From Sorangium cellulosum (GTDB lineage Bacteria > Myxococcota_A > Polyangia > Polyangiales > Polyangiaceae): a stretch of 64,000 nt of DNA. The notes under the pieces were generated by a model. That model was not told the DNA's origin. It saw nothing but the letters and a program-made list of their open reading frames with translations, and did not search any database. The position numbers were made by a program, and so were the translations under genes. Location of the stretch: assembly GCF_002950945.1 (NCBI RefSeq), contig NZ_CP012673.1:9314501-9378500 (forward strand), written 5' to 3'. Positions 5,380-62,048 of this stretch are shown in pieces (the first letter of the stretch is position 1; each line of letters begins with the position of its first letter).

Positions 5380-5664
5380 CGCAGAGCCCTCCTCTTTCGC
5401 GCTCGACTCCGAGCGTGCATGCCCGCACGAGAACCTCGTCGTCCACGCGCGATCTGCCGTGATGACCGCCCTGGGCGCGCGACGGACGTGGTTGATCGTC
5501 CGCGCGGGGACAGCGGCATACGGCGTGCCATGGACGCGAGTCGCCGGGGGCCGCGGGAGATTTCCTTGGGTTGAAGAGCACTTGCGAGGGGCGACGGCCG
5601 GTGGCTCGACCGGAGCTGCGGCGGGGATCGTTAGGCGACTGACGGAGGGGATACCCAGCCGAAC

Positions 5665-5910
5665 GCGCCGTCGGGTGGGGCCGCGCGGCGGGGGCGGGCG
5701 GGCGCTGGCCAATCGGCAAGACTGGGACGAAGGAGCTTGCGCTGGGAACACCACCCGGCATGTCTCCCTTCGGGCCTTGCCCGCTGGGACGTTATGGTGC
5801 GCGCCACACAAGGCGCGCCTGGGACGTGGAGGTGACTGGGGACTTATGGCACCTCGGTCGGTGCTCGGCGCGCCCGCCCGCCCCCGCCGCGCGACCCCAC
5901 CCGACGGCGC
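5665..5910. repeat. Long hairpin element, copy 1 (structured RNA or MITE-like)
   Basis: Arms 5665-5705 and 5870-5910 are inverted repeats of 41 bp with a single mismatch (A at 5894). They enclose a 164-nt loop. The loop contains nested hairpins: GCGCGCC with GGCGCGC near 5800-5818, and GCACC with GGTGC at 5849-5864. Block 5733-5826 matches 24490-24583 in copy 2 without gaps at 85 of 94 positions (hand count), and 5843-5867 matches 24600-24624 at 23 of 25. The arms differ between the copies but stay paired. The element lies in the 688-bp gap between the divergent genes starting at 5379 and 6068. Whether it is transcribed is unknown. Confidence 0.8.
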
Positions 5911-6067
5911 TCACGTTGGAGATCTGGGGAAGAGAGGGGGATCTGATCGCGGGGGCGCACGGGAGGGGGCGCCGGGCAGCTCGGCACCAGCGGGACCCAA
6001 AGAGCAGCGGCCGGGGGGGCAGGGATGCGGTATCGAATCGACCGCCTGCACGATCGCGAGGAACCCA

Positions 6068-22256: not shown

Positions 22257-22439
22257 CCTGCGCGGGCCGCGCCCCTCCGCGCGGCGGCGCCGACCCGTCC
22301 CGAGGCCGGCGCCGCCGGCCTCCCCCCCACCCACGGCCTCCTCCCCATCCACCTCGCGGCAGCGCCAGCCGGGCGATCCGGAAAGAAAGCGCTCGTGGTA
22401 AGAACAAGCGGGCGCGACACGGCGTCCAAGCGTGAGCTT

Positions 22440-24389
22440 ATGCGACGTCGAACCTCTTCCCTCCGCGCGCCTGGGGCTCCTGCCCTCGGTCCTGGCCTCG
22501 CCGCCCTCGCGTCCGCCGCCCTGGCGGTCGCCGCCTCCTCCCCTGCCCTCGCCGCCGGCGCGCCGCTCGCGGCGCCGCTGGTCGACGCGAAGACGATCAA
22601 GCTCGACGGGGTCCCGAAGGAGTGGCCGGTGGCGTTCTCCTCGCTCGGCCACAAGGTGAAGGGCAAGCCGGGCAAGGCCGATCTCGCCGCGCAGGCGGCC
22701 ATCGCCTACGACGACGCGCGGGTCTACGTGGTGGCCGACGTGACCGACGACGCCCTGCGCGGCGGCGCCGATCACGTGGCGCTGGTGCTCGGCTTCCCGG
22801 GCGGGAAGGTCCACGAGGTCGCGCTCTACCCGGGCGAGCCGGGCAAGACGGCGGGCAGCGTCAAGCTCGCGGGCGGCAAGGCGGCGGCGGGGGCGAAGGT
22901 GGTCGAGGCGCCCCGGGGCGGCGGCTACACGCTCGAGGCGAGCATCCCGTGGTCGGCGTTCCCCGACGCGGCGACGACCCGGGTCGGGCTGCGGGCGGGG
23001 CTGTTCGTGCACGACGCGGACGGCGGCGGGGCGGTCGACGCGATCGTCGGCAGCGCGGCGTCGGAGGCGTACGCGTCGCTGTCGCCGCTCGCGACCGAGC
23101 CGGAGCTGGCGCTGACCGAGGGGCTCCTGAAGAGCAAGGGGATCCGCAGCGCGCCGAGCTACGACCTCGTCGTCGACGTGGCGGGGGACGCGATGCGGGA
23201 GCGGGTGATCGTCTACGAGCGGTACCTGGTCGTCCTCGGCCCCGGCTTCCGGAAGGGCGCGCAGTACTACTTCGAGGACCTCGGGGTCGACGCCAAGGAG
23301 GGGATGTTGCCCTCGCTCACGGCGCGCGATCTGACCGGCGACGGCCAGGCCGAGCTCATCCTGAGGAAGCGCTCCGGCAGCAGCGCGAAGTACCGCGAGG
23401 TGATGCACGTGATGCAGTTCGGCGCCGGCGACGCGCCGAGGCCGCTCTTCCAGCACGAGGTCGCGATCGCGACCGACAAGGGCTCGGTGGTCAACGAGGT
23501 CGACTTCGTCCCCGACGGCGCCAAGACGGCGATCCGCGTGCGGCCGGGCAAGGCGACCCGCTACGACGCGAGCAACTATGCGGAGGGGGTGGAGCAGTCG
23601 TACGACCCGCTGCTCTTGCCGTGGGGTCCGATCAAGTCGCAGCTGTACAAGCTGACCGGGGGCGTGTTCACGAAGGCCAGCGAGGAGAGGCAGGCGGCCG
23701 CTTCCCGGCCGGCGCCGGCCCAGGCGGCCGAGGAGGCGCGGCCTGCGGCGAAGCCGGCGCTCGCGCCGGGGGAGCTGCTCGACAAGGTGTACGCCCTCTA
23801 CCGGCGCGACCGCGGGGCGTCGTCGAGCAAGCCGCGCTTCGATCTGGGGGCCGACGTGGCCGGCGGCCGCGAGCCCGAGCGGGTGCTGCTCCACGACCGC
23901 GACATCGTGGTGTTCGGGAAGGGCTTCCGCGGGGGGACGGGGTACGCGTTCATGACGCTCGCCCAGTTCGCCTCGCCGGGCGACATCCGGTCGGTGAGCG
24001 CGCGGGATCTCACGGGCGACGGCAAGGCGGAGATCATCGTCCACGGCACGGTGCGGGCGCCGGCGCCGAAGGAGGCGGGGAGCGGGACCGTGGACCGCGA
24101 CGTGGTGCTCATCTTCCGGATCGAGGGCGACGGGATCCAGCGGGTCTTCGCGGCCGAGGTCGCGCGGAGCGTCGGGAGCAAGAAGATCGTCGGCGAGCTC
24201 AGGTTCGTGCGCGTGGGGGACAAGGTGGGAATCGAGCTCGCGCCGGGACGGGCCGTGGAGTGGACGGAGGAGACGTATCCGTTCAATCAGGACAAGGGGC
24301 CTGTCGGGGGGTTCGAGCCGCTGCTCCTGCCCTGGGGGGGAGCGCAGGCGGTGAAGTACGTTTGGAACGGGTCGAGCTTTGCCAGGTAG
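22440..24389 (+). CDS. Secreted protein with CBM9-like N-terminal domain
   Basis: This encodes about 649 residues from the ATG at 22440; a GTG at 22395 in frame would add 15 residues and an unusually long signal region. The Arg-rich N-terminus and hydrophobic stretch end in SPALAAGA, a signal peptidase I site. The next 180 residues, including KTIKLDGVPKEW and ARVYVVADVTDD, look like a CBM9/DOMON-like sugar-binding domain. Two homologous 180-residue regions follow, each with a block like ARDLTGDGQAELIL or ARDLTGDGKAEIIV, the calcium-binding loop of FG-GAP/VCBS blades. They are joined by an Ala/Pro-rich linker. Location outside the cytoplasm is well supported; the ligand is unknown. The hairpin element begins 30 bp downstream. 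Confidence 0.75.
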   Translation: MRRRTSSLRAPGAPALGPGLAALASAALAVAASSPALAAGAPLAAPLVDAKTIKLDGVPKEWPVAFSSLGHKVKGKPGKADLAAQAAIAYDDARVYVVADVTDDALRGGADHVALVLGFPGGKVHEVALYPGEPGKTAGSVKLAGGKAAAGAKVVEAPRGGGYTLEASIPWSAFPDAATTRVGLRAGLFVHDADGGGAVDAIVGSAASEAYASLSPLATEPELALTEGLLKSKGIRSAPSYDLVVDVAGDAMRERVIVYERYLVVLGPGFRKGAQYYFEDLGVDAKEGMLPSLTARDLTGDGQAELILRKRSGSSAKYREVMHVMQFGAGDAPRPLFQHEVAIATDKGSVVNEVDFVPDGAKTAIRVRPGKATRYDASNYAEGVEQSYDPLLLPWGPIKSQLYKLTGGVFTKASEERQAAASRPAPAQAAEEARPAAKPALAPGELLDKVYALYRRDRGASSSKPRFDLGADVAGGREPERVLLHDRDIVVFGKGFRGGTGYAFMTLAQFASPGDIRSVSARDLTGDGKAEIIVHGTVRAPAPKEAGSGTVDRDVVLIFRIEGDGIQRVFAAEVARSVGSKKIVGELRFVRVGDKVGIELAPGRAVEWTEETYPFNQDKGPVGGFEPLLLPWGGAQAVKYVWNGSSFAR

Positions 24390-24419: not shown

Positions 24420-24669
24420 GCGCCGGCGGGGGGCTCTGCGCGGCAGGGCGCGGGTGGGCGCTGGCCATCCGCCGAGGCTGGTGGGGTGAGAGCTTGCGCT
24501 GAGAACACCGCCCGGCATGTCTCCCTTCGGGCCATGCTGACTGGGACGTTATGGAGCGCGCCACACGAGGCGCGCCTGAGACGATGAGCCAGCTTTGGGC
24601 TTATGGTGCCTCGGTCGGTGCTCGATCGCGCCCACCCGCGCCCTGCCGCGCAGAGCCCCCCGCCGGCGC
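24420..24669. repeat. Long hairpin element, copy 2 (structured RNA or MITE-like)
   Basis: Arms 24420-24461 and 24628-24669 are perfect 42-bp inverted repeats around a 166-nt loop. Compared with copy 1 the left arm has eight substitutions and one indel, all matched in the right arm, which keeps pairing intact. The loop shares the 94-nt block (24490-24583) and the 25-nt block (24600-24624) with copy 1. It sits between the stop at 24389 and the ATG at 24773, in the same orientation as copy 1. Confidence 0.82.
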
Positions 24670-34523: not shown

Positions 34524-34790
34524 GCCCGCTGCAACGCTTGCATCGAGCGTTGCAGCGGGCGACTCGGCCGTTGCAACGCTTGCATCAAGCGTTGCAACGG
34601 CCGACTCGGTCGCCGAGTCGGCCGTTGCAACGCTTGAGACGGCCGACTCTGTGGCCCAGCGGGCCGTTTCAAGGCTTGAGATGGCCCACTCGGCGGCCGA
34701 GAGAGCCGTTTCAAGGCTTGAAATCGCCGACTCGGCGACCGAGTCGGGCGTTTCAAGCCTTGAAGCGGGTGACTGTGCGCCCGGGAAGGC
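34524..34790. repeat. 42-bp tandem array of GTTGCAACGCTTG-type hairpins
   Basis: This follows the stop at 34516. First hairpin: 34524-34538 with 34546-34560, 15 bp perfect. Second: 34566-34582 with 34586-34602, 17 bp perfect, 3-nt loop. Then four 42-bp units each hold a CGACTCGG-type palindrome followed by GTTGCAACGCTTG or GTTTCAAGGCTTG. The period of 42 (14 codons) keeps several frames open. The array sits between convergent genes, so it may terminate both transcripts, but its repetition goes beyond a normal terminator. Confidence 0.8.
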
Positions 34791-34870
34791 GATCTCCTCG
34801 CACCACGCGCGAGCGTTCCCGATCGGGGACGGGGGTTTTGCTCTCCTGGGATCGAGCGGGGAAGCCCGCC

Positions 34871-39135: not shown

Positions 39136-39307
39136 TGGCGGCCTTCCTCACGGATAGATGATCGATGTCACATAGCCAGATACCGTCGGGTTACCGATGT
39201 GTTCCTACGTGGAGAGGTCGAACGCACCCCAACCGGGGTGAAACTCCACGTCGAATGCATTTGCGTGCCAGGACTCCATACCTGAGACATCCCCTCGAAT
39301 TCTTCGA

Positions 39308-39385
39308 AAAATTCACAGGGAGGCGGGGAGACGGGGAGGAAAATCTTCAAATACTCCCTGTCTCCTCGCCTCCCTGTTCAATTTT
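39308..39385. terminator. Strong hairpin between convergent genes
   Basis: 39315-39338 pairs with 39354-39377 over 24 bp; the two non-Watson-Crick positions are G opposite T, so both would be wobble pairs in plus-strand RNA. Beyond a small bulge, AAAATT (39308-39313) pairs with AATTTT (39380-39385). The loop is 15 nt. It can act on the transcript ending at 39135, but lies within the 3' flank of the minus-strand gene ending at 39419 as well. The AT-rich base and the polypurine arm also fit a dispersed palindromic repeat. Confidence 0.6.
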
Positions 39386-39418
39386 CCCGCGGAAAAGGCC
39401 CGCGCCCGCGCCTTCGCC

Positions 39419-61976: not shown

Positions 61977-62048
61977 GAACCGCCAAGGCGCCAAGGACGC
62001 CAAGAAGGAGAAGAAAATATCTTGGCGCCCTTGGCGCCTTGGCGGTTC
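61977..62048. repeat. CCGCCAAGGCGCCAAG-type palindromic repeat
   Basis: 61977-62004 pairs with 62021-62048 over 28 bp with one mismatch, loop 16 nt (AT-rich). The arms are built from CGCCAAG steps. It lies 43 bp after the polB stop. From memory, repeats of this consensus are scattered in many unrelated bacteria; this needs a search. Confidence 0.75.

Follow-up and report, generated by a model that had tools for sequence, protein, structure and literature searches.

A genus-restricted hairpin repeat after Sorangium genes, with arms probably homogenised by DNA-level copying

Among known bacterial repeats, REP/BIME elements are palindromic and intergenic, lie in many cases at gene 3′ ends and are moved by RAYT transposases. 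When the two sides of a hairpin vary together, such covariation is the standard argument for selection on RNA structure, and an RNA under pairing selection is expected to tolerate G-U pairs better than A-C mismatches. In bacteria, stable stem-loops between genes are concentrated in the first 50 bp behind stop codons and where two genes converge; ERIC, NEMIS and comparable repeats are cotranscribed (PMC1590033). At the DNA level, the copying of one inverted-repeat arm onto the other by template switching is established in other systems (PMC8604942, PMC8794818, PMC3820800).

The window analysed here, a stretch of 64,000 nucleotides from Sorangium cellulosum, carries two copies of a long hairpin on its plus strand. 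Copy 1 (5665–5910, outer ends GCGCC...GGCGC) is closed by a 41-nt left arm (5665–5705) that is 98% complementary to the 41-nt right arm (5870–5910) with which it pairs. Copy 2 (24420–24669) starts 30 nt after the stop codon of a plus-strand gene, and its 42-nt arms (24420–24461 and 24628–24669) pair with 100% complementarity. These arms and stems agree with those given in the preliminary description of the two hairpins, and the matched arm differences reported there are indeed mirrored when both copies are aligned end to end. The common sequence blocks are also real, but their extent is the whole conserved core of about 174 nt plus both arms. This core is found in each copy, closed by the palindrome; including the innermost stem pairs, it spans 5701–5874 in copy 1 (model R1, 200.3 bits) and 24457–24632 in copy 2 (model R1, 184.9 bits). 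A typical member of the family runs from GCGCC to GGCGC over about 240–261 nt, with GC-rich arms of 40–47 bp and a spacer of about 165 nt, and arm subtypes exist, for example a TCGCC-type insertion mirrored in the opposite arm. Around the palindrome lie weakly conserved outer boxes (about CCggG.gGcaC before and TcaCG after it), and a search for an extension of the palindrome beyond the arms gave no signal. The sense-strand flanks are G-rich (G 0.45–0.46 and C 0.22–0.28, versus G 0.38 and C 0.40 at other gene ends).

The core contains three short hairpins, which in copy 1 are CCCGG...TCGGG (5754–5774), GCGCGCC-ACACAA-GGCGCGC (5799–5818) and GGCACC-TCGGTC-GGTGCT (5848–5865). The first hairpin and the stem of the second are invariant in 82 copies, while the third changes its pairing only through one-sided G-U steps. 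Both window copies fold far more stably than their dinucleotide shuffles (z of −7.6 and −9.4, with 0 shuffles as stable). Searching the window against Rfam 15 gave no match at the gathering threshold, copy 1 producing only weak chance matches; a described structured RNA family was rejected on this ground. The first reading had likewise recognised no known ncRNA family. The core itself may nevertheless be a structured RNA, judging from its invariant or G-U-only hairpins and from the orientation that it keeps at orthologous sites. Elsewhere in the window, an overlapping inverted-repeat cluster of GCCGACTCGG-type and GTTTCAAGGCTTGA-type units occupies 34526–34796, and two further long hairpins at 61977–62048 (29-nt arms, 97%) and 39306–39386 (33-nt arms, 85%) are seemingly unrelated to the family.

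What had been described as a two-copy element is in fact a sizeable family. In the whole source genome (14.56 Mb, one contig), a DNA search returned 40 scored full or near-full copies, and a scan with the core pattern (≤3 mismatches) located at least 57 places (30 forward and 27 reverse), as against 0 places for a reversed control pattern in the same scan. The repeat is present in all six Sorangium genomes searched, with 1–57 copies each; the other five hold at least about 9, 8, 12, 3 and 1 copies, these being lower bounds set by scoring limits. Named records with the exact core pattern are Sorangium cellulosum So0157-2, So ceGT47 and So0008-312. The core model (E < 1e-4) found nothing in 102 other genomes of the taxonomic family or in 236 genomes sampled across the phylum (partly the same genomes as the 102), and viral contigs gave 0 exact matches. 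As far as searched, then, the repeat family is restricted to the genus Sorangium, and the homologue search across genomes that the preliminary description had proposed has produced further copies there and nowhere else. A diverged possible relative of the core (45 bits, without long arms) was observed on the minus strand of G003 (L185, 1770–1916); its hairpin sequence differs (GCGCACC...GGTGCGC), and it may be an ancestor-like form, a decayed copy or, being GC-rich, a match by chance.

The family has also multiplied within the source lineage. For both window copies the matching places in four relatives are without the element, meaning that the family has spread. At copy 2, similarity to the relatives breaks off exactly at the stop codon of the upstream gene (22395–24389, plus strand, Pfam CBM9_1 and FG-GAP), whose 3′ end is conserved in the four relatives lacking the element there; at the copy 1 locus, the block conserved in relatives stops near 5530 and restarts near 6010. 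An orthologous element exists at seven source-genome sites under a strict rule and at two or more further sites by flank matches, whereas most other source-genome sites appear specific to this lineage; lineage-specific copies are present in at least two genomes. An exact insertion footprint was sought in the relatives and was not definable, the intergenic flanks being too diverged.

Some copies lie in unusual local arrangements. In G001 (C3:1793445–1793775, L186 / L129), a full copy is directly preceded by a partial tandem duplicate, about 86 bp long, of the left flank, left arm and core start; an apparent 5S rRNA gene lies downstream on the opposite strand. The upstream flank of source-genome locus L059 (6.45 Mb) and the downstream flank of L087 (3.91 Mb) are joined by one element in relatives (L119, L129), so a rearrangement break took place at or near the element, though its actual cause may be an rRNA operon close by. 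Several source-genome copies (L048, L051, L058, L061) form inverted pairs 0.8–5 kb apart, facing each other; by a rough estimate, about one close pair is expected by chance.

From the alignment of 82 copies, it is clear that the two arms change together. Their pairs comprise 3362 Watson–Crick, 2 G-U and 15 mismatched cells, where cells count sequences and not independent events, the arm statistics being patterns and not exact tests. Relative to the commonest pair, the arms show 341–342 two-sided changes and 2 one-sided ones, while the core helices show 0 two-sided and 13 one-sided (G-U) changes. Arm columns alternate among GC, CG, UA and AU with wobble states nearly absent, and the covariation is very strong when compared with shuffles and slid controls. 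Covariation of this strength could reflect compensatory evolution: selection would act on the long stem as RNA, and every mutation would be compensated by another that restores the pairing. The sense-orientation position at gene 3′ ends, which suggests transcription, as well as the preserved core orientation, would fit this explanation. The substitution pattern, however, speaks against it. The paired-change cells in the arms include 223 transversions and 119 transitions, so that most paired changes cannot have gone via a G-U step; the imperfect arm cells hold fewer G-U (2) than C-A/A-C combinations (9, one-sided p = 0.03); pairing is near-perfect from end to end of the stem in almost all copies; and the core helices, within the same molecule, either stay unchanged or vary by G-U alone. 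Wobble pairs are to be expected under selection on RNA pairing but not under arm-to-arm copying of DNA, and mirrored changes of every Watson–Crick type with almost no G-U thus favour conversion over selection. The preliminary description had left the choice between selection on pairing and arm conversion undecided; the balance now tips to conversion, and compensatory evolution appears improbable to us.

Mirrored arms would likewise be obtained if whole elements were overwritten by other copies through homologous recombination, both arms together, and the arm subtypes common to many copies within one genome are in keeping with such concerted evolution. Against it stand 14 mirrored arm states that are each private to one of the 82 copies: these probably originated where they now lie and so do not favour overwriting from elsewhere in the family. 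A copy's nearest relative is, moreover, usually only 83–95% identical. Concerted evolution is therefore a very unlikely source of the pattern as a whole, although some non-private mirrored differences may be due to ectopic conversion from one copy to another.

Comparison of nine orthologous sites, with flanks 80–92% identical where measured, gave 60 mirrored and 6 one-sided pair comparisons, and these mirrored changes mean that the youth of the copies is not the cause of the arm match. They also bear on a third explanation, a mobile element copied through a hairpin intermediate by an unrecognised enzyme, in which one arm templates the other at each round and new copies are perfect. The 57 copies, the lineage-specific copies in at least two genomes, the empty places in relatives and the strong bias to gene 3′ ends all agree with mobility; yet copies at orthologous sites in different species also show mirrored differences, and correction therefore takes place in situ as well. 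The searches for a mobilising enzyme were negative too: the Y1 transposase family (PF01797) gave 0 matches in the whole source genome, with control genomes positive, and the nine reverse-transcriptase hits there (at 228975, 236686, 3151491, 3156742, 14488156, 6837470, 13001201, 13472061 and 3083089) are mostly group II introns, as group II intron RNA (Rfam) of at least two sets accompanies eight of them, all except 3083089. None of the nine loci holds the repeat core, and a retron or other reverse-transcriptase element was rejected for this reason; together, the Y1 and reverse-transcriptase searches of the source genome found no mobiliser or parent element for the repeat. The flanks of 51 copies showed no enriched direct repeat that would signal a target-site duplication, although a very short or variable one could escape. 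The preliminary description had proposed that many copies with target-site duplications would point to a mobile element, and only the many copies have materialised. Of its two candidate identities, a structured RNA or a mobile hairpin, each keeps a part, since the family did spread in the past and its core may be a structured RNA. Movement through a hairpin intermediate is, on this evidence, unlikely. A related and similarly doubtful idea is a new type of mobile element that would multiply via a self-templating hairpin and be aimed at gene 3′ ends by the transcription-termination or R-loop machinery of the host, its arms being restored to perfect symmetry both on copying and in place.

The position of the repeat relative to genes was checked in 51 scorable copies using codon scores trained on the source genome. 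In 40 of these a same-sense coding region lies upstream and ends 5–65 nt before the element (median 26.5); six have an antisense gene upstream and five gave no call, so that 40 of the 46 called cases are in sense (two-sided p = 3e-7). Downstream of the 40 copies that follow a sense stop codon, the gene is convergent in 21 and co-directional in 10. The copies are intergenic in the context scans, and no single gene family adjoins most of them. The plus-strand gene downstream, pointed out earlier for both window copies, is therefore not the telling neighbour, most copies being fixed relative to the upstream stop codon. For copy 1 itself, the codon score finds a sense gene downstream and calls nothing as coding in the adjoining upstream region, where GC frame bias points to a gene on the minus strand. 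Copy 1 is thus probably flanked by two divergent genes, an exception to the 3′-end rule, and to this extent counts against the reading of the family as a 3′-end repeat.

From its place after stop codons, the repeat is likely cotranscribed with the upstream gene, and an mRNA transcribed through it would carry a very stable 3′ hairpin. Inverted repeats of 41 bp might in theory allow the core to invert, yet each of the 18 orthologous comparisons shows it in the same orientation. This constancy suggests an orientation-dependent role, one exerted in the transcript. By analogy with the stem-loops common after stop codons and with the cotranscribed ERIC and NEMIS repeats, the hairpin would probably act in 3′-end formation or mRNA protection. 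An intrinsic terminator was rejected, as neither window copy has a T run after its right arm; near copy 2, a terminator scan returned a single weak site, separate from the element and downstream of it.

Taken together, we favour, with a probability of roughly two in three, a genus-specific 3′-end hairpin repeat that has multiplied in this lineage and whose arms are homogenised by DNA-level copying. The copying step, which we infer from the substitution pattern, would work as follows: a mutation arises in one arm and, as either arm serves again and again as the DNA template for its partner, the change is mirrored or erased. The route would probably be a template switch during replication or a repair templated by the hairpin or cruciform within the palindrome. 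In yeast, such template-switch events have been seen only under high transcription, and the inverted repeats involved tend to have short spacers (both among PMC8604942, PMC8794818 and PMC3820800). Whether transcription through the G-rich-flanked 3′ ends favours arm copying in Sorangium is speculation. Two observations count against arm copying, namely that the spacer of about 165 nt is much longer than in the studied quasi-palindrome events, and that spacer inversion, a known by-product, occurred in none of the 18 orthologous comparisons; inversion is expected only for the intermolecular template-switch route.

If this reading holds, the Sorangium repeat is a clear example from nature of very strong covariation whose most likely origin is DNA arm copying, marked by the lack of wobble pairs, and its dozens of copies can serve as natural reporters of how a bacterium corrects inverted repeats. 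For long-stem RNA candidates it suggests a test of G-U against A-C mismatches, of the transversion share and of control helices within the same molecule. The repeat comes from some of the largest bacterial genomes and is undescribed in the open-access articles searched; no relation to any described family was found.

Among the known systems, the repeat resembles REP/BIME elements in being palindromic, intergenic and at gene 3′ ends in many copies, but differs in size and anatomy, and the Y1/RAYT transposase that moves REP/BIME elements gave no match in the source genome, so this identity was rejected. Like MITEs, it is non-coding and multi-copy, has terminal inverted repeats and occupies places that are empty in relatives; unlike them, its inverted repeats are long and copy-specific and not a common end sequence, and it comes without a detected target duplication (51 copies) or parent transposase. 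With quasi-palindrome correction (PMC8604942, PMC3820800, PMC8794818) it shares the copying of arm onto arm, seen as mirrored changes of every type that bypass wobble intermediates. There, however, arms and spacers are short, whereas here a whole family has arms of 40–47 bp around a structured spacer of about 165 nt, without spacer inversion. It is comparable to ERIC, NEMIS/Correia and similar elements, which are also short, non-coding, multi-copy intergenic repeats folding into long hairpins; the Sorangium repeat, in contrast, measures about 240–261 nt with a conserved core of about 174 nt, is confined to Sorangium, and has arms that vary between copies yet stay mirrored. The Sorangium repeat is thus a new family, of a kind already known, that evolves in an unusual way.
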